This document shows, piece after piece, positions 3,535-23,947 of a DNA stretch of 31,369 bases (positions within the stretch are counted from its first letter, which is position 1; the number at the start of each line of letters is the position of its first letter). The DNA comes from a virus. Below the pieces are notes generated by a model that ran no database searches, was not told where the DNA came from, and was given only the letters and a program-made list of their open reading frames with translations. The DNA is taken from positions 1 through 31,369 of IMG/VR virus record IMGVR_UViG_3300003873_000108, one strand, 5' to 3'. The position numbers and the translations under genes were made by a program.

Positions 3535-4104
3535 TTATATTCTTACATTACTAGTCATTTTGCTAATATACTCTAGAGCTTTAGTTGCATTATTTTTTAC
3601 AATGTAATCTCTAACTATACTCATCTCATTAATTGTAAGAGGTTGTTTTTTTTGTTTATATTTTTCTACTATAGATTTTTTATATTCTTCAGGTATACAT
3701 TTTAAATCTGCCATCTGTCTATTAATTTTAATTCTTTCTTTAGTGATTGGTGACTGCATTAATTCCTTTAATTCAATAGTACCATAATATTTTTTTGATT
3801 TAGATGGTCCGAATCTCTGTTTTTTGTACACTAAATACGTAGGGTCTAAATTACCCTTTTTAGCTTCTAAGTCTATGAATTCGTTTTTTATGTCATTGAA
3901 TATAGACAATTTCTGTATAGAGTAGACATCATCTATAGTATTAGCAGGTATATTTATACCCTTCTTTTGTAAAAATATTTTAAAATTATCTGTAAATTCT
4001 CTACCATACAAAAGATTTGGTATATTATCAGCGACATCACCATTAGATATAAGAACCCATTTACTATATTTTATGTCTTTCTCTTTATATACTTCTATTT
4101 TCAT
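3535..4104 (-). CDS. rnh: RNase H / 5'-3' exonuclease, C-terminal part (split gene)
   Basis: The 189-residue protein continues the T4 RNase H (FEN-1 family) fold begun in the preceding gene. WVLISNGDVADNIPN (about 17-31) matches the helix-hairpin-helix metal site (G-D-x-x-D-N). The C-terminal segment, with AD-x-KCIPEEYKKSIVEKY, aligns in pattern with the end of T4 RNase H (ID-x-DYIPDNI). It starts with ATG overlapping the stop of the N-terminal part in an ATGA, with AGAGGA as ribosome site, so the two halves are translationally coupled. Together they total 385 residues against 305 in T4. Catalytic aspartates lie on both halves, so they must assemble to work, unless a sequencing frameshift created the split. 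Confidence 0.78.
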   Translation of the reverse strand: MKIEVYKEKDIKYSKWVLISNGDVADNIPNLLYGREFTDNFKIFLQKKGINIPANTIDDVYSIQKLSIFNDIKNEFIDLEAKKGNLDPTYLVYKKQRFGPSKSKKYYGTIELKELMQSPITKERIKINRQMADLKCIPEEYKKSIVEKYKQKKQPLTINEMSIVRDYIVKNNATKALEYISKMTSNVRI

Positions 4105-4691
4105 ATCAGTCCTCTTAGTAATGGATTCATTTTTGTTTTTGGCTTAATACCAGCGAATCCTTCTATTTCTTGCTTATATTTACATTTTTCAGATACGTAT
4201 ATTATATCTTTCATTGGGTCGTATACAGATGTTTTTAAATTAATTAGTTGTTTAAAGTCTTTGTCTGATGATACTATTATAGTATTAAAGTTTTCATTGT
4301 TTTCAATATACATAGCTAAAGATGCAATAACATCGTCTCCTTCGCATCTATCTTGCCCAATGAATCTCATTAATGTACCTTTATCTAATGCTTCTATTAA
4401 TTCATTATGTAGGTTAAAATATGTTGACCAGTCGAATTCATCTTTTTCCCTATTCAATGCTCGTTGTACTTTATATATAGGGTCAATATCTCTTCTCCAA
4501 TTGTCTCTATTCTCTAAAGCACAAATGATATCCTTAGGGTGTACTTTGAATTTATTGATTGTACTGTTTATCATTTTTATTAAAATATTAATATAAGCAA
4601 CTTGCCAGTCAGTTTTAGAGATACTTCTAGCAACAAATAAACCTCTAATGGACATATGTCCTAAATCTATCAAAAGGATAGTCTCAGTCAT
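4101..4691 (-). CDS. rnh: RNase H / 5'-3' exonuclease, N-terminal part (split gene)
   Basis: This half removes RNA primers from lagging-strand fragments in T4-like replication. The 196-residue protein carries the N-terminal FEN-type motifs: LLIDLGH (first Asp), ALENRDNWRRD with KVQR (arch region), CEGDDVIA and SSDKDFKQL (metal-binding Asp/Glu). It then ends shortly after a KTKMNP segment, before the helix-hairpin-helix that sits in the next gene. Its ATG overlaps the stop of the upstream 86-residue gene (ATGA), with AAGG upstream. The N-terminal half on its own lacks the second metal cluster. Confidence 0.82.
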   Translation of the reverse strand: MTETILLIDLGHMSIRGLFVARSISKTDWQVAYINILIKMINSTINKFKVHPKDIICALENRDNWRRDIDPIYKVQRALNREKDEFDWSTYFNLHNELIEALDKGTLMRFIGQDRCEGDDVIASLAMYIENNENFNTIIVSSDKDFKQLINLKTSVYDPMKDIIYVSEKCKYKQEIEGFAGIKPKTKMNPLLRGLI

Positions 4692-16922: not shown

Positions 16923-17716
16923 TAATTATATTTGATTTGTCCTGCGATATAATATGTTATAGTAGTATCTTTAAATTTATTCAAATACTTAACAGTCATA
17001 TCATATTTTTTGTCATCTATTTTGTCTTTCTCTTTGAGTAATTCAGTTTCTTTCATTTTATTATCTATATTAGGGATACAATCGCACTGAACTTTTATCA
17101 GCCCATCTAAAATGTGTATATTATACACTAAATCTTGTGTTTTATACAATTTTGTGAGTGATTCTATATCTACAGAGAAAGTATCAGAATAGTCATCACC
17201 TGTACATGGTAGACTTACTGTATATGAAGAAGCTGTCATATCATCTGAATATGCATTAAGAATAACTTCATTATTATCTTTTTTTATACTAATAGAGCTT
17301 AAGTTAAGTATTGAATGTAGTTTAATAATTTTATCTAATTCTTTTACTGGAAGATTAAAATTAAACTTGTAATCATTAGATACTTTATTAAGGAATCCAT
17401 CTATTTGTTTTATATCATCATTTATATATTCAGCATTATCAGTAACATAAACAGTAGTATTATTTTTATTTTTAATATTTATATTTGGATAATGTACATC
17501 TATTTTTGAGTCTATACCCATTGTAGATAATATACTCAAGAATTCATTTGTATTAAGTAAAGTTACTTCTTTTTTGAATTCATTTAACTTTAGATTACTA
17601 CAAACACCTATTATATTCTTTTCAGGAGAAACAAATTTAATATCTCCTGAATTAAGAATAAGAGCCGGAGTTACATTTGTTATATCTTTTATAACATTAT
17701 ACTGTAAACTATTCAT
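16922..17716 (-). CDS. 45: Sliding clamp (T4 gp45)
   Basis: This is the trimeric processivity clamp and, in T4, the mobile activator of late transcription. Starting at 17716 (MNSLQYNVIKDITN) the protein has 264 residues (T4 228). AAGGAAAAA precedes this ATG, which lies 8 nt inside the end of uvsX; an upstream in-frame start would overlap uvsX further. The pattern fits a clamp: ALILNSGDIKFVSPEKNIIGV, a central ELDKIIKLHSILNLSSISI, and a C-terminal TITYYIAGQIK. Primary identity is low, and the call rests on size, pattern and position next to uvsX, gp43 and gp44. Confidence 0.82.
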   Translation of the reverse strand: MNSLQYNVIKDITNVTPALILNSGDIKFVSPEKNIIGVCSNLKLNEFKKEVTLLNTNEFLSILSTMGIDSKIDVHYPNINIKNKNNTTVYVTDNAEYINDDIKQIDGFLNKVSNDYKFNFNLPVKELDKIIKLHSILNLSSISIKKDNNEVILNAYSDDMTASSYTVSLPCTGDDYSDTFSVDIESLTKLYKTQDLVYNIHILDGLIKVQCDCIPNIDNKMKETELLKEKDKIDDKKYDMTVKYLNKFKDTTITYYIAGQIKYN

Positions 17717-18779
17717 CTTTTTCCTTTTCTTCTTTAATATCAAGAACATTTTCTATACAATATGGATTCTGAACTGATGCTGAATAAGAATATTTATTCT
17801 CTAAATATTTTCTTAAGTCAGTATTTTTAAAAATATCTAACCAGAATTCTTTAGTGTATATATGAGCCTCTCTCCATTTTTTATCATCTTCTACACAAGG
17901 TCTAGTATACCAACCATTATTAGGTTTAATAACATAACCACCTTCTAAAGCATCTTCAAGTATACCATAGAATGGATTAATACCAGCATCATAATTATTC
18001 AAAAATTTTAATTTAGAATTTTCTTTAGCTAGTCTGCCTTTTGCTGAAATACCTGTTAATGCATATCCAATAACATCATTACCGTCTTTGACTTTTGCTC
18101 TACTGTTTATTTGTAGAATATTTGAACTAGTGTATATCAGAGAGCTTCCACCACTTAGTACTTGACCTCCAAACATCGACAAACTTGCGTAAGTGTGCGT
18201 TATAACAACACCTGTTATATCATTTTTTCCAGTAATACCTAATAGCAACTTCATAAAATTGTTTTTCTTTTTACTTATAGTCATATCAAGCGTATCTTTA
18301 CCAGCTAGCGAATCTTCAGTTGTTTTGGAAGTAATCATTGTACCTAATGAATCTAGAACAATAAATACTTTCCCGTCAACTTTCTCATCATAATCTTCAA
18401 ACATATTTAATATAATTGACTGTATATTCTCAATAGAATTATCTTGAATAAGAATTAATTTCTCTTCAGAACAATCTAAGCCAAATGTTTTGGCTGCATT
18501 TTTGTCAAAAGCAAATTCAGCATCTATCCATACTACACTATTACTTTTTTTCTGAGCGTCTGCAGCAGATATAAGAGCTATAATACTTTTAAGATGGGCT
18601 GGAGGCGCAGCAAGAGTAGTAAGTTTACCTCTAGGGACACCACCATTACATCTGCCAGACAGCAATAAATTTAATGTAATACTACCAGCATTATAAAATT
18701 CTGTCACTTCTTTATCTTTAGTCAATTGAACTGATTTCTTAAATAGTTTATTATTTTTTATTTTATCAATTAAAGCCAT
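17709..18779 (-). CDS. uvsX: RecA-like recombinase UvsX
   Basis: The enzyme catalyses strand exchange and recombination-primed replication. The 356-residue protein (T4 391) has a RecA core. The P-loop is AAPPAHLKS (about 56-64), which lacks the usual second glycine, as T4 UvsX also does. VVWIDAEFAFD is the catalytic-Glu segment, and KVFIVLDSLGTM is Walker B. VVITHTYASLSMFGGQVLSGG fits the L2 region, and a C-terminal NPFYGILEDALEGGYV follows. A conserved promoter lies 28 nt upstream. The gp45 gene overlaps its end. Confidence 0.94.
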   Translation of the reverse strand: MALIDKIKNNKLFKKSVQLTKDKEVTEFYNAGSITLNLLLSGRCNGGVPRGKLTTLAAPPAHLKSIIALISAADAQKKSNSVVWIDAEFAFDKNAAKTFGLDCSEEKLILIQDNSIENIQSIILNMFEDYDEKVDGKVFIVLDSLGTMITSKTTEDSLAGKDTLDMTISKKKNNFMKLLLGITGKNDITGVVITHTYASLSMFGGQVLSGGSSLIYTSSNILQINSRAKVKDGNDVIGYALTGISAKGRLAKENSKLKFLNNYDAGINPFYGILEDALEGGYVIKPNNGWYTRPCVEDDKKWREAHIYTKEFWLDIFKNTDLRKYLENKYSYSASVQNPYCIENVLDIKEEKEKDE

Positions 18780-18806
18780 TATTCCTCCTTTTTTTATTTA
18801 TGTTCT

Positions 18807-18839
18807 ATTATACCATAACTTCCATTAAACTAAGATTAA
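18807..18839 (-). promoter_or_regulatory. Conserved extended -10 promoter with dyad, copy 6
   Basis: TGGTATAAT has its -10 at 18812-18807, with the dyad TTAATCTTAGTTTAA at 18839-18825. It abuts the stop of the cytochrome gene and drives uvsX, gp45 and probably gp32. Confidence 0.85.
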
Positions 18840-18840
18840 A

Positions 18841-19128
18841 TCATTTTATTTTCTTAATATCTTTAGAAATTGTCTTAAGGTCTTTCTTATTGTATTTGTA
18901 TACTTGTGCTTTCATAATTGCTCCAGCTGGATCAGTACCTGTTTTAAAAGATACTAAAGTATTGTATATACTGGTACTATTCATATCTCTAACAATGTCT
19001 GATCGGCCGAGTGCTTTTTTCTCAAATCGCTGACCATGACAACCTTTACATGTACTTAAGTTTACATTAGCAAATGCTATAGAAGCTATGCATATCATAC
19101 ATATTTTTTTCATTGTATTCGTTTTCAT
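18841..19128 (-). CDS. Secreted c-type cytochrome (cytochrome c553-like), possible metabolic gene
   Basis: This small monohaem cytochrome is predicted to be exported and to carry electrons in the periplasm. A signal peptide is clear: MKK, then a hydrophobic ICMICIASIAFA, with cleavage likely after AFA. CKGCH is the haem-binding CxxCH. GQRFEKKALGRSDIVRDM and a distal AIMKAQV (Met ligand) follow, as in the c553 family of Campylobacterota. The total is 95 residues from 19128, or 90 from a second ATG at 19113, which fits the signal peptide better. Neither start has a good ribosome site. The gene lies between the polymerase and uvsX, 5 nt after the polymerase stop, with TTTAAATA at 19131-19138. 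Haem attachment would depend on the host. Confidence 0.88.
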   Translation of the reverse strand: MKTNTMKKICMICIASIAFANVNLSTCKGCHGQRFEKKALGRSDIVRDMNSTSIYNTLVSFKTGTDPAGAIMKAQVYKYNKKDLKTISKDIKKIK

Positions 19129-19133
19129 ATTAT

Positions 19134-21146
19134 TTAAATCAGAGCTCTTGAATTACCACTTCTAATACTCCATCCTCTATTTTTTACTAGTTTTTCTAAT
19201 GATGCATATATTGTTTTTTGGAACATTAAATTTTTATCTATTCGTTTATCTAATCTGAATTCTTTAATAAATGGTACGCTAGAATTCTCTGCAAGATACC
19301 CAATTACATTAGAATTAAATGATGTGCTGCAAGGTTTAATATATAGGTACTTCATTTTATTTTTATTCTCTATATATTTATACTTAGTTTCTAAATTATT
19401 TTCCTTAATTAATTTATTATGTATCAATGAAGCCCTAACATGAATTGGAACACCCTTATCATTAAGATTATAATTAAGGAAATCATTTAGTGTTTTGTTT
19501 TTACCCTTTATAAGCGACTTATCATTGTTTTTATAATTACTATAATTTACCCTTGCTTCTTTTATCTTTTTCTCTGATTGTTTAGCTAATGTTACAGATT
19601 TTGGAAAAGCTATTTCATTATATGGTAATTTATAATAGAAATCTTTTAATGCAGAATAATACTTAGTGAATGTATCTTCATTAGAAGTAAGTATTATCAT
19701 TAATCCTTTTTTAAGCGCAGTACGGATTTTTGGTGGTACATTAGTTTTCTTTAAATTCAACCCTGCCATTTTTATATAACCATCATGATATATTGTACCT
19801 TCATTATCGATAACGTTCATAGCATAATTTCTCATGCCATTAACTATACCAGATGATGCTATTATTTCTCTTTCTAAATCAATAACCTCTGGTCTTTTAA
19901 AATTATATACATATGCTAAATGCTTAAGATTCTTCATGTTAAAATCTGATATAGGTGGTATAATATGTTTATCTATATAAGCTGCAGTTTTTACATAATC
20001 ATTTTTGTTTAGTACACCTTTCTTGTCTAATTCATCCACAATAGGTTCTAAACATATATAACCAGAGTCTGTATCCCAAAGGGCAGTTATTGGTGTTCTA
20101 TAATTATATTTAGATAATTTCTTTTCTAATTTATCAATCCAGTACAAATCAAGTAATCTACCTACTGCCGTAATTGATCTTGCTACTTCTAGTTTATATA
20201 GAATAAAGTATTTATTACCACCGGCACCATAAAAACTATTTAATGCAAGTTTCTTTGACATTTGTCCTGCATTATAATGAACTACTAATTCATTGAATTC
20301 ATCTATTTTCTTTTTTAATTCAGTATCACTTTTATCTCTATCTTCTACGTGTATACTATTAACTGAATCAAAATTTCTATTCTTTATGTAATCCTTATAT
20401 AATTGAGATTTAGATGAATACTCTTTCATTTTCTTTTTATCAGCTTTTCTTGCATTATAAATATCATCCACTAATTTAGAAATAAAAGTGATGTAGCTTG
20501 TATCAAATATATCTCCAGTTGGTGAAATATTAACTTTATATTTCTGTAGTAACGGTGTTACATTCTTTTCTATCTCAGGAACATTACTAATAAGTTTATT
20601 GATTGTTGACGGAATTCCTTTATTATCTGGATAGTACTTCGATACTACCTCTTGTATCTCTTTAGGTGCCTGTGAATATGGTATATGAGAATCAAAGCTA
20701 AAGTTACACGCTCTAATAATAGACGGGTACAGTGAAGCAAAATCAAATGAAACTACCCAACGGAAAAATCCTGGATTTGCTGAAACTGCCCCACCTAAAT
20801 AATCAGCATATTTGTCATACTCAGAATTAGAGCTCAAATTAAAAGTACTATCTGGAATAGATTCAGCTTCTTCAATATCTCCATAAAATTCAGGAGTGCC
20901 ATATTTATTCTTATAGCATTCTTTATAGATTAGATGATTCCATGGTGATACTGTTCCTAAAGTTTTATCTAAGTTCACTCCATAAAGTTTAGACAATGAT
21001 ATAGCAGTATTCAATATAGATGTTTTATTGTCTATTAAAAAAGTGACGTTTACATCCTGAATGTTATAGTTCATGTATTTTTGATAATCATATGTATAAA
21101 GATCTTCTAAATTCATTGATTTTTTTATAATTCTTTTTATTTTCAA
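19134..21146 (-). CDS. 43: DNA polymerase, C-terminal part (family B, T4 gp43, split gene)
   Basis: This is the polymerase portion of gp43. The 670-residue protein carries the Exo III motif (YMNYNIQD, Y-x3-D) near residue 30, then Pol motif A DFASLYPSII (about 134), motif B KKLALNSFYGAGG (about 300) and motif C LWDTDSGYI (about 358). Thumb sequences follow to the C-terminus. The start is TTG at 21146, supported by AAAGGAG at 5 nt; an ATG 12 codons later is possible. A degenerate promoter copy lies between the two halves. The Exo I and II motifs are on the upstream gene, so proofreading needs both polypeptides. Confidence 0.92.
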   Translation of the reverse strand: MKIKRIIKKSMNLEDLYTYDYQKYMNYNIQDVNVTFLIDNKTSILNTAISLSKLYGVNLDKTLGTVSPWNHLIYKECYKNKYGTPEFYGDIEEAESIPDSTFNLSSNSEYDKYADYLGGAVSANPGFFRWVVSFDFASLYPSIIRACNFSFDSHIPYSQAPKEIQEVVSKYYPDNKGIPSTINKLISNVPEIEKNVTPLLQKYKVNISPTGDIFDTSYITFISKLVDDIYNARKADKKKMKEYSSKSQLYKDYIKNRNFDSVNSIHVEDRDKSDTELKKKIDEFNELVVHYNAGQMSKKLALNSFYGAGGNKYFILYKLEVARSITAVGRLLDLYWIDKLEKKLSKYNYRTPITALWDTDSGYICLEPIVDELDKKGVLNKNDYVKTAAYIDKHIIPPISDFNMKNLKHLAYVYNFKRPEVIDLEREIIASSGIVNGMRNYAMNVIDNEGTIYHDGYIKMAGLNLKKTNVPPKIRTALKKGLMIILTSNEDTFTKYYSALKDFYYKLPYNEIAFPKSVTLAKQSEKKIKEARVNYSNYKNNDKSLIKGKNKTLNDFLNYNLNDKGVPIHVRASLIHNKLIKENNLETKYKYIENKNKMKYLYIKPCSTSFNSNVIGYLAENSSVPFIKEFRLDKRIDKNLMFQKTIYASLEKLVKNRGWSIRSGNSRALI

Positions 21147-21166
21147 TACTGCTCCTTTTGTATTCT

Positions 21167-21197
21167 ATTGTGCTATACTTCCTTAAACTAAGATTAA
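21167..21197 (-). promoter_or_regulatory. Degenerate promoter copy between the two polymerase genes, copy 7
   Basis: The dyad TTAATCTTAGTTTAA (21197-21183) and GGAAG are kept, but the -10 reads CACAAT after TAG, and two bases are missing from the spacer. It overlaps the stop of the N-terminal gene. It probably gives the C-terminal part some separate expression. Confidence 0.6.
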
Positions 21198-22315
21198 AGT
21201 GAATCATCTGAAATCTCATCGTTTTCTGTTAAATCTTTAACTTGAATTATTCTGCCATCTTTTAGTTTAATATTATCGTCTTCTAATAATTTCAATACTT
21301 CTCCATTCTCTAGTTCAATCTCGTATAGATAATCCTCTGAGTAATTTAACTTTCCTGTAATTCCTTCTGCTATTGCTATTGCATTAAGTGCGTAAGAATC
21401 TCTAATTTTATATCTAAACTTCTTATAGAACGACATTTGATCAATGAGATAATATCCGAGAGGTTCTAACACTAATAAATCTTTATTTCCTGGGTTTTTA
21501 CTAGAGTGAATTTTAGCAGGTTTGTTAAATTTATAGTACTTGCAAAGTATTTTACCAACTATATGTTTAACAGTTATTTCTATCTTAGATAATTCTTCCC
21601 TATTTAATTCAGGTAAGTCTATATTCTCATATTCTATATATCTAATATATTCTAATCGAAGTAACCTATTAATAAGGAAAGGAATATCAAACCCGTCAGA
21701 GTTCCACCCAATTAATGCATCTGTTCCTATATCATTAATTAGCTTAAAGAAGTCAATTAACATAGTATGTTCTGATAAACATTTTTTATAAATAACATTA
21801 TCTTCAGATGGTGTGTAGTCTTTCAATCCGAATGCATAAAATTTATTATTCTTTGCTGAGTAAGCTGTTATAGTAGTAACAGATGTTTTTCCATCTAATT
21901 TAGGGAATCCACCATCACCTCTTTTTAATTCTCCATTAGGTAGTACTATAGTACCATTAAATCCTGTCTCAATATCAAAATAAACTAAATGTAATTTATT
22001 AAGTACATCAGTACTGTATTCTTTAAATCTATACTGATCTTCAGGGTCAGCATTTGAAAATATCTTACCACCAGATTGTTTGAATAACTCTAATGACTCA
22101 TTATGTTTCCTAATACTATTATTTCTAATAACATCTAATTTAATCTTTTTTGTTCTATAGTCAACAAAATCAGACGGAGCTCCACCAGTATCAGTAAAAT
22201 ATTCAAACGGGTATTCTGAGATTTCATCTATAATTCTATTATTATTTTTATCATAATATATGTCTATTATTTTATTCCTATATCTGAATACTCTGACGTA
22301 TGATTTATTTACCAT
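21194..22315 (-). CDS. 43: DNA polymerase, N-terminal part (exonuclease domain, T4 gp43, split gene)
   Basis: This is the 3'-5' exonuclease and N-terminal domain of gp43. The 373-residue protein has Exo I VYFDIETGF (D-x-E, 111-119) and Exo II LIGWNSDGFD (201-210). It then leaves polymerase homology at about 326, just before the place where Exo III would come. Residues 328-373 (EIELENGEVLKLLED, then KLKDGRIIQVKDLTENDEI) look like the beta-strand block of a Hint/intein domain (x-LENG-x-x-L-K, D-x-x-K, V-KDL-x-x-x-DEI) but lack the N-terminal Cys/Ser block. This suggests a degenerate split-intein or insertion remnant. The gene follows gp44 by 1 nt. Confidence 0.88.
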   Translation of the reverse strand: MVNKSYVRVFRYRNKIIDIYYDKNNNRIIDEISEYPFEYFTDTGGAPSDFVDYRTKKIKLDVIRNNSIRKHNESLELFKQSGGKIFSNADPEDQYRFKEYSTDVLNKLHLVYFDIETGFNGTIVLPNGELKRGDGGFPKLDGKTSVTTITAYSAKNNKFYAFGLKDYTPSEDNVIYKKCLSEHTMLIDFFKLINDIGTDALIGWNSDGFDIPFLINRLLRLEYIRYIEYENIDLPELNREELSKIEITVKHIVGKILCKYYKFNKPAKIHSSKNPGNKDLLVLEPLGYYLIDQMSFYKKFRYKIRDSYALNAIAIAEGITGKLNYSEDYLYEIELENGEVLKLLEDDNIKLKDGRIIQVKDLTENDEISDDSL

Positions 22316-23246: not shown

Positions 23247-23264
23247 ATATTCTCCTTTTTATTT

Positions 23265-23297
23265 ATTATATCATAACTTCCATTAAACGGAGATTAA
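23265..23297 (-). promoter_or_regulatory. Conserved extended -10 promoter with dyad, copy 8
   Basis: TGATATAAT has its -10 at 23270-23265, with the dyad TTAATCTCCGTTTAA at 23297-23283. It drives gp44 and polymerase. The dyad directly abuts the 3' end of the last tRNA-like gene. Confidence 0.85.
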
Positions 23298-23380
23298 CCC
23301 AGGCGTAGGATTCGAACCTACTTTGCTTTTTTACAGCAACCGTTTATCAGTCAGTCCATTTTACCATCATGCAACCTGGG
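23298..23380 (-). tRNA. tRNA with Ile anticodon GAT but a long variable arm
   Basis: The acceptor stem CCCAGGT/GCCTGGG, a 3-bp D stem with GG in the loop, and the T arm GTAGG-TTCGAAT-CCTAC all fit. The best anticodon loop is CTGATAA (anticodon GAT at 23348-23346, U33 and A37 present), with one A-A mismatch in its stem. The variable region is about 17 nt and forms its own stem (TTGCT/AGCAA), as in Leu, Ser or Tyr tRNAs. The combination with an Ile anticodon is odd. No CCA is encoded; the discriminator base would be T. Confidence 0.7.
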
Positions 23381-23459
23381 ATATATCTTGTAATTTCTTA
23401 GTTTCATCGTTAGACTACTTATACTCAGTACCACGAAAAGGTGAATTACTTACTGACTG

Positions 23460-23542
23460 CGGAAGTGAAGAGACTCGAACTCTTAAAGCTTATAGGCCCG
23501 ACAGTTTAGCAAACTGCCCCAATACCATTATGGGACACTTCC
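23460..23542 (-). tRNA. tRNA-Ser (anticodon GCT)
   Basis: A complete class II tRNA: acceptor GGAAGTG/CACTTCC, anticodon stem GCAGT/ACTGT with loop TTGCTAA (anticodon GCT), long variable arm, T arm AAGAG-TTCGAGT-CTCTT, and discriminator G. No CCA is encoded. It reads AGC/AGU codons. Confidence 0.9.
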
Positions 23543-23544
23543 AA

Positions 23545-23601
23545 TGGCTCCAAGGGCATTTCGTTTAACAGACGAATAATCTACCACTGAGTTACCTTGG
23601 A
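23545..23601 (-). tRNA. tRNA-Asn-like gene (anticodon GTT) lacking the T arm
   Basis: The acceptor stem is a perfect 7 bp (TCCAAGG/CCTTGGA), with discriminator G and encoded CCA. The D arm has AGTGGTAGA in its loop. The anticodon arm TTCGT-CTGTTAA-ACGAA gives GTT (Asn). Only ATGC separates the anticodon stem from the 3' acceptor strand, so the T arm and most of the variable loop are missing. The total is 57 nt. It is either a T-armless tRNA or a decayed gene. It lies 2 nt upstream of tRNA-Ser. Confidence 0.65.
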
Positions 23602-23604
23602 ATG

Positions 23605-23679
23605 TTTTTGTTAAAGATGTATATTGTAAAATTCAAGGAGTCATATGATAATATTATGATAATACATCTTTAACAAAAA
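23605..23679. repeat. 18-bp perfect inverted repeat (hairpin) inside the tRNA cluster
   Basis: TTTTTGTTAAAGATGTAT at 23605-23622 is the exact reverse complement of 23662-23679, with a 39-nt loop. It lies between the T-armless tRNA and the terminator-like hairpin. Possible roles are processing, termination or the footprint of a small insertion. The loop on the plus strand contains AAGGAG followed at 4 nt by an ATG and only three more codons. Confidence 0.85.
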
Positions 23680-23711
23680 TCGAGGAGGTGATTAAACTCC
23701 TCTAGGTTTTT
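23675..23711. terminator. Rho-independent terminator-like hairpin, usable on either strand
   Basis: GAGGAG (23682-23687) pairs with CTCCTC (23697-23702) around a 9-nt loop. On the minus strand the stem is followed by GATTTTTG; on the plus strand by TAGGTTTTTA. Minus-strand use would separate the upstream Met tRNA from the downstream Asn, Ser and Ile-like tRNAs. Processing rather than termination is equally possible. Confidence 0.6.
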
Positions 23712-23784
23712 ATTTGCAGGATTACCTTAAACCATATACTACAGTCTCGCCCTGTAGTCGACGTCAAGTAATCAACTTGATTCA
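23708..23784 (-). ncRNA. Structured RNA segment, not a recognisable tRNA
   Basis: In minus-strand sense an outer pairing GATTAC/GTAATC encloses a strong hairpin CTACAG-GGCGAGA-CTGTAG (6 bp, 7-nt loop). A second small hairpin CAAGT/ACTTG overlaps the outer arm. The 7-nt loop lacks U33, so it is not a normal anticodon arm, and there is no T-loop motif. It may be a decayed tRNA or another small RNA. Confidence 0.35.
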
Positions 23785-23846
23785 GGTGTGCTGGGCTAGA
23801 ATCGAACTAGCTAAGTAAATCAAATCCCTACCAAGGGACCCAACAC
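23785..23846 (-). tRNA. Truncated tRNA-like gene without a normal anticodon arm
   Basis: The acceptor stem GTGTTGG/CCAGCAC and the T arm GCTAG-TTCGATT-CTAGC are good, and a CCCT-TGG-T-AGGG hairpin can act as a D arm. Only 14 nt remain between this and the T arm, too few for an anticodon arm. If that hairpin is instead the anticodon arm, the loop CTTGGTA would give TGG (Pro) and the D arm would be missing. The gene is about 60 nt and probably decayed. Confidence 0.5.
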
Positions 23847-23872
23847 ATAAAAATATTTAGAATCTTCTAACA

Positions 23873-23947
23873 TGGTTGCGGTGGTCGGGATTTGCACCCG
23901 AATCTATGGCTGATGAAACCATCGGCATACTATTGGCCCACTCCGCA
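23873..23947 (-). tRNA. tRNA with Met anticodon CAT
   Basis: The acceptor TGCGGAG/CACCGCA has one mismatch, followed by discriminator A and encoded CCA. The D stem is GGC/GCC. The anticodon arm ATGGT-TTCATCA-GCCAT gives CAT (Met, or Ile if C34 is modified to lysidine). The T arm is TCGGG-TGCAAAT-CCCGA. Position 37 is C rather than A, and one extra base sits before the 3' acceptor strand, so it is not fully canonical. It is the first gene after the cluster promoter. Confidence 0.75.

Follow-up and report, generated by a model that had tools for sequence, protein, structure and literature searches.

A c553-type cytochrome gene in the replication block of a T4-like phage: a candidate auxiliary metabolic gene with affinity to Campylobacterota

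Why should a T4-like phage carry, between its DNA polymerase and its recombinase, a small gene resembling a secreted bacterial cytochrome c553? The question is raised by virus record IMGVR_UViG_3300003873_000108 of IMG/VR, which was analysed over the whole of its 31,369 nucleotides (hereafter, the window). A first-pass annotation, made from the letters of the DNA, had described such a gene, and its ORF, strand, coordinates and motifs, including CKGCH and a distal Met, proved to be as claimed:

18841..19128, minus strand: c553-type cytochrome gene, 95 codons; translation MKTNTMKKICMICIASIAFANVNLSTCKGCHGQRFEKKALGRSDIVRDMNSTSIYNTLVSFKTGTDPAGAIMKAQVYKYNKKDLKTISKDIKKIK
19126-19128, minus strand: first start codon of the cytochrome (M1)
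19111-19113, minus strand: alternative start (M6), the point at which homologues from bacteria start with MKKI
18841-18843, minus strand: stop codon (TGA) of the cytochrome
19069..19128, minus strand: predicted signal peptide, residues 1-20, MKTNTMKKICMICIASIAFA, with likely cleavage between AFA and N (from the sequence and the alignment of homologues)
19036..19050, minus strand: CKGCH haem-c attachment motif, residues 27-31, in invariant alignment columns
18913..18915, minus strand: Met72, predicted distal haem ligand, invariant in 69 sequences and located in the Met-loop helix of the model

The N-terminus of the protein showed the typical n, h and c regions when inspected by eye and aligned with the signal peptides of its homologues, and its single CXXCH motif, CKGCH, lies near the N-terminus of the mature form. 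When the phage protein was used as a single-sequence phmmer query against the PDB, the cytochrome c553 of Desulfovibrio was matched at E 4e-4; a profile of 69 relatives matched c553 at E 3e-20. Only five residues were invariant in the alignment, and the phage protein has all five: C27, C30 and H31 of the haem-attachment motif, G32 directly behind it, and M72, the distal ligand. Of the 18 positions that are conserved in 90% or more of its 68 bacterial relatives, 17 are unchanged in it. An AlphaFold model generated from the 69 sequences, which superseded an earlier one built on 10 sequences (pLDDT 66), reached a pLDDT of about 84-95 in the mature domain. The model superposed on Desulfovibrio c553 (1dvh) with a Z of 12.6 and an rmsd of 1.6 Å over 75 residues, and c553 came at the top when Foldseek was run with it. 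In Pfam, the protein scored 13.2 bits for PF13442, against a cut-off of 27, and gave no match to PF00034; in a single-sequence search of NCBIfam it also stayed under the cut-off. However, 21 of the 69 aligned relatives likewise fail each of PF00034 and PF13442 at E 0.01, so these two models miss part of the c553 group. Judged from its sequence and predicted fold, ORF 18841-19128 is a complete monohaem cytochrome c of the c553 type, in agreement with the first-pass annotation, and its secretion is predicted from the signal peptide.

The relatives of this protein were sought in bacterial genomes. With the phage protein alone as the query, matches were found in 288 of 397 Campylobacterota genomes (best E 6e-22); among 299 Pseudomonadota genomes 7 were matched, six of these at E about 1e-4 or worse. 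Pseudomonadota had entered the comparison because of a Pseudoalteromonas genome; excepting it, none of them gave a match better than 1e-4. The affinity to Campylobacterota noticed at first reading was thus upheld. In a scan of ∼85,000 genomes, the best 80 loci all belonged to Campylobacterota bar one Pseudoalteromonas contig. The search patterns of that scan were biased by the alignment behind them, hence the checks with the phage protein alone; the alignment from which the patterns were chosen was used only for the patterns of this genome scan and of one IMG/VR scan. Among 72,556 plasmid records, two (from Sulfuricurvum and Sulfurovum) were matched by the phage protein alone, and the nearest bacterial loci inspected had chromosomal neighbours such as rplU/obg, copper ATPase and acetolactate synthase genes. 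The searches found no bacterial protein that shares more than about 51% identity with the phage cytochrome. A contig labelled Pseudoalteromonas sp. NBT06-2 (L035, positions 3965-4258) bears an Arcobacteraceae-like c553 gene, the sole match to the phage protein in that genome, which reflects either lateral transfer or contamination.

The nearest kin are the periplasmic c553 proteins of Campylobacterota of the FEKKALG type, represented by L013 (Arcobacter), L016 and L022 (Campylobacterota MAGs) and L068 (a c553-like protein of Helicobacter). Like them, the phage protein has a signal peptide (predicted), a single CXXCH, a FEKKALG segment, the distal Met in MK.QV, a mature domain of 70-75 residues and the same predicted fold; unlike them, it is encoded by a phage, reaches at most about 50% identity and has a far more basic C-terminal helix. 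In the tree it fell into a clade with L016, L017, L022 and L051 (SH-aLRT 97), with which it shares GRSDIV and a pre-Met loop two residues shorter than in most c553 proteins. Support for this clade dropped to an SH-aLRT of 86 once other long branches were removed, and a grouping of the phage protein with Arcobacteraceae was not rejected (AU p 0.45); the protein is assigned to Campylobacterota c553 at the level of the phylum. The branch leading to it is long (0.79-1.63 substitutions per site). The Desulfovibrio vulgaris c553 (1dvh, 1c53) shares with it the fold and the haem ligands at 27% identity; the physiological partner of the D. vulgaris protein is hydrogenase or formate dehydrogenase, and PDB entry 1e08 is a model of the complex with hydrogenase. 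By sequence, the affinity of the phage cytochrome is with the c553 of Campylobacterota and not with other c cytochromes.

The recognisable genes near the cytochrome are all on the same strand and form a T4-like replication and repair block with the order uvsW, gp55, gp47/gp46, gp44, two-part gp43, cytochrome, uvsX, gp45, gp32, topoisomerase II, gp41 and a gp23-like capsid protein. The position between DNA polymerase and uvsX, already indicated by the first-pass annotation, is defined by the following genes:

19134..21146, minus strand: C-terminal half of DNA polymerase gp43, ending 5 bp before the cytochrome ATG
21194..22315, minus strand: N-terminal (exonuclease) half of DNA polymerase gp43
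17709..18779, minus strand: uvsX recombinase

The cytochrome gene lies away from the contig ends, with gp43 on one side and uvsX, gp45 and gp32 on the other. Ahead of the replication genes, the window contains about nine near-identical copies of a promoter-like element of 35 bp (consensus TTTAATCTTAGTTTAATGGAAGTTATGRTATAATA), which includes an extended -10 and is usually followed by a Shine-Dalgarno sequence and a gene:

starts at 2252, 4996, 5697, 12420, 14272, 18833, 23291, 24084 and 28568, minus strand: copies of the promoter-like element
18806..18840, minus strand: promoter-like element TTTAATCTTAGTTTAATGGAAGTTATGGTATAATA, straight after the cytochrome stop and upstream of uvsX
23264..23298, minus strand: nearest intact copy upstream of the cytochrome, before gp44

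When IMG/VR was scanned for this element, a sister phage was found (IMGVR_UViG_3300003873_000071, here L133; 22.6 kb); the element is common to both phages and was specific enough for a DNA scan to recover the second. The sister phage has the same gene order, and the C-terminal half of its polymerase is 71% identical. Its polymerase stop codon forms part of the start of the promoter element (AATTTAAACTCGGTTTAATGTAAGTTATGATATAAT), with no cytochrome between; the gene was absent from this site and from the entire 22.6-kb record, which is a fragment whose contig ends shortly beyond the junction. In the window, the cytochrome ATG comes 5 bp after the polymerase stop, and the element ahead of uvsX adjoins the cytochrome TGA without a gap. 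In a more distant phage (L002), 18 bp separate the polymerase gene from uvsX. Since the sister phage has no cytochrome there, the gene appears to be a cargo insert between the polymerase stop and the uvsX promoter, and it is a variable, non-core gene among these related phages, being absent from the sister record. Its absence in both the sister phage and L002 suggests a gain in the window phage rather than a loss in the sister. The insert is framed by a short direct repeat:

19134..19141, minus strand: left copy of the 8-bp direct repeat TGATTTAA, at the end of the polymerase gene
18836..18843, minus strand: right copy of the 8-bp direct repeat TGATTTAA, in the cytochrome stop and the start of the promoter element

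This pair may have been left by recombination at a short stretch of homology, but is suggestive only, because TTTAA is partly set by the polymerase stop and the promoter. The GC content of the cytochrome ORF is 0.30, and, in a comparison with 10 host loci related to it, its codon usage came out slightly nearer to that of the phage (LLR 0.8 to 15.4 nats).

How the gene might be expressed is suggested by what surrounds it. Ahead of it there is neither a copy of the promoter element nor a Shine-Dalgarno sequence. The lack of the latter, which most window genes have, had been remarked on at first reading and could make translation of the cytochrome weak. No terminator-like site was found between the polymerase gene and the cytochrome. 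The element ahead of the polymerase C-terminal half is intact in the sister phage (L133 2088) and decayed in the window (about 21148-21190), which leaves the copy before gp44 as the nearest intact upstream promoter. This arrangement points to transcription of the cytochrome by read-through with gp44-gp43 from the pre-gp44 element, probably with moderate translation. The first-pass annotation had instead drawn attention to a 'late-like box'. The box TTTAAATA is indeed present, but at the expected frequency (9 on the minus strand versus 8.2 ± 2.5 expected; for TATAAATA, 14 versus 11.7 ± 3.9), and it was discarded as evidence for a late promoter; control as a late gene is not supported, and the arrangement points to read-through with the replication genes.

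What the protein does for the phage is a further matter. The reading that we consider probable, with some reserve, is that the cytochrome is an auxiliary metabolic gene: a Campylobacterota c553 inserted into a T4-like phage, expressed by read-through and carrying electrons in the periplasm. A c553 gene would have been captured from a Campylobacterota chromosome and placed between the polymerase stop and the uvsX promoter, where it would be transcribed together with the replication genes. Its product would be exported by Sec and receive haem c from the maturation machinery of the host. Once in the periplasm, it would shuttle electrons from the quinol:cytochrome c reductase to the cbb3 oxidase or to some other acceptor that depends on cytochrome c, and the supply of ATP in the infected cell would be kept up by this phage electron carrier. 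The donor event, the timing of expression, export, haem attachment, the partners and the benefit are steps that we infer. In the respiratory chain of Campylobacterota, electrons pass from the Rieske/cytochrome bc complex to the cbb3 oxidase by way of a periplasmic cytochrome c (reviewed in PMC6682613). A top-up of the electron pool, as suggested at first reading, is the most likely role because the phage protein has just what such a carrier needs, and nothing more.

The charge of the protein bears on an alternative, to which we give a minor share of the probability: that the haem fold was kept with a basic docking face, and that the protein acts as a modified carrier or a decoy, diverting electrons to a different acceptor or blocking normal transfer. 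This might serve, for instance, to change redox state, to remove peroxide by way of cytochrome c peroxidase, or to hamper a rival phage. The mature domain has a pI of 9.9 and a net charge of +10 (rank 110 of 112 in the compared set), and the charge of its C-terminal helix (18 residues) is +6, the highest of the set, the median of which is 0. Together with the long branch, this charge could reflect a changed partner or the loss of the original role, and the plastocyanin of cyanophages, which is reported to differ from that of the host, may likewise serve a different acceptor (PMC10452541). However, the haem ligands and almost all positions conserved in the family are retained, and charge can shift by divergence alone. 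The specific proposal that a phage c553 with a strongly basic docking face steers the electrons of the infected Campylobacterota cell to an acceptor of the phage's choosing, beyond a top-up, seems to us rather unlikely.

It is improbable that the gene is a mere passenger, captured from a host by chance, serving no selected role and on its way to being lost. Such a gene would fit with its absence from this site in the sister phage, with its lack of a promoter and a Shine-Dalgarno sequence of its own, and with the fact that just one carrier is known; its 95-codon frame is nevertheless intact, and so high a retention of conserved positions, despite at least 0.8 substitutions per site on the branch, is unlikely without selection. 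The first-pass annotation had itself raised the doubts that the best matches might not be c553 and that a gene missing from related phages might be present here through a chimeric assembly: the best matches are c553, and the sister phage does lack the gene at the site. A bacterial c553 gene wrongly joined to phage sequence is, even so, very improbable, for although the gene is known from one contig only and the sister contig stops just after the junction, each junction coincides precisely with a gene boundary, the right one enters a perfect copy of a repeated phage promoter, T4-like genes lie on both flanks, the bacterial proteins found do not exceed about 51% identity, and in GC and codon usage the gene is slightly closer to the phage than to any of the ten host loci.

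The auxiliary metabolic gene reading can be set against known systems. Electron-transport genes of phages are well documented for photosynthesis; soluble respiratory carriers in phages are, to our knowledge, not well documented. At vents and in redox gradients, major chemolithotrophs belong to the Campylobacterota, and we know of little work on their phages. The cyanophage plastocyanin (petE) is likewise a small soluble electron carrier borne by a phage and thought to aid electron flow in the host (PMC10452541), although it is a copper protein with an unrelated fold and an unrelated host. The respiratory-chain genes ascribed to viruses include cydAB of vent viruses (PMC12043954) and cbb3 oxidase subunit I, in a marine report of 2012 based on reads of the viral fraction (PMC3474794); these are membrane oxidases, whereas the phage c553 is a soluble c-type carrier. 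In a survey of viruses of oxygen-minimum zones, which dealt with denitrification and nitrogen-cycling genes, the authors remarked that they had seen no cytochromes or other carriers (PMC8115048). The phage c553 probably adds a new variety to the auxiliary metabolic genes. If the carrier works, periplasmic electron flow as a limit on a lytic phage becomes directly testable.

No viral homologue of the cytochrome was detected in IMG/VR when it was scanned with the phage protein and with each of two alignments (these scans used short peptide patterns, which divergent copies may escape), in INPHARED by tblastn with the phage protein and one bacterial c553 protein, in PHROGs, among the BFVD structures, or among 92 loci of T4-like contigs searched by HMM. 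A search through the full records of five contigs from related phages, run without a positive control, also gave no cytochrome, and no report of a phage c553 was found in the open-access literature searched. As to the host, whose likely group the first-pass annotation had read from this gene, the link to Campylobacterota comes from the cytochrome gene itself. No related polymerase was found in the 397 Campylobacterota genomes, and the promoter element, with one mismatch allowed, occurred in one of the 397, at a site without phage homology. The best matches of UvsX are to Campylobacter phages (33%), and the composition of the phage is AT-rich; both are only compatible with a Campylobacterota host.

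Other features of the two phage genomes were observed. In the two-ORF DNA polymerase (19134-22315 in the window, L133 33-5255 in the sister phage), the tail of the N-terminal half is conserved and intein-like to the eye (YEIELENGE...DNIKLKDGRII.VK.LTE.DEIS). Between the polymerase halves, the sister phage has a 653-aa GIY-YIG protein with many repeats (VKDKDGN...DDPRYLSGEL), which the window does not have. The sister phage also bears a 1042-aa ORF of unknown kind (L133 13387-16515) with repeats of the NPVNP/NPTTP type near the C-terminus. A tRNA cluster is present in the window at 23297-23946, with tRNA-Ile(GAT) and tRNA-Ser(GCT) recognised by ARAGORN; Rfam adds two more tRNA matches, at 23548-23601 and 23877-23946.
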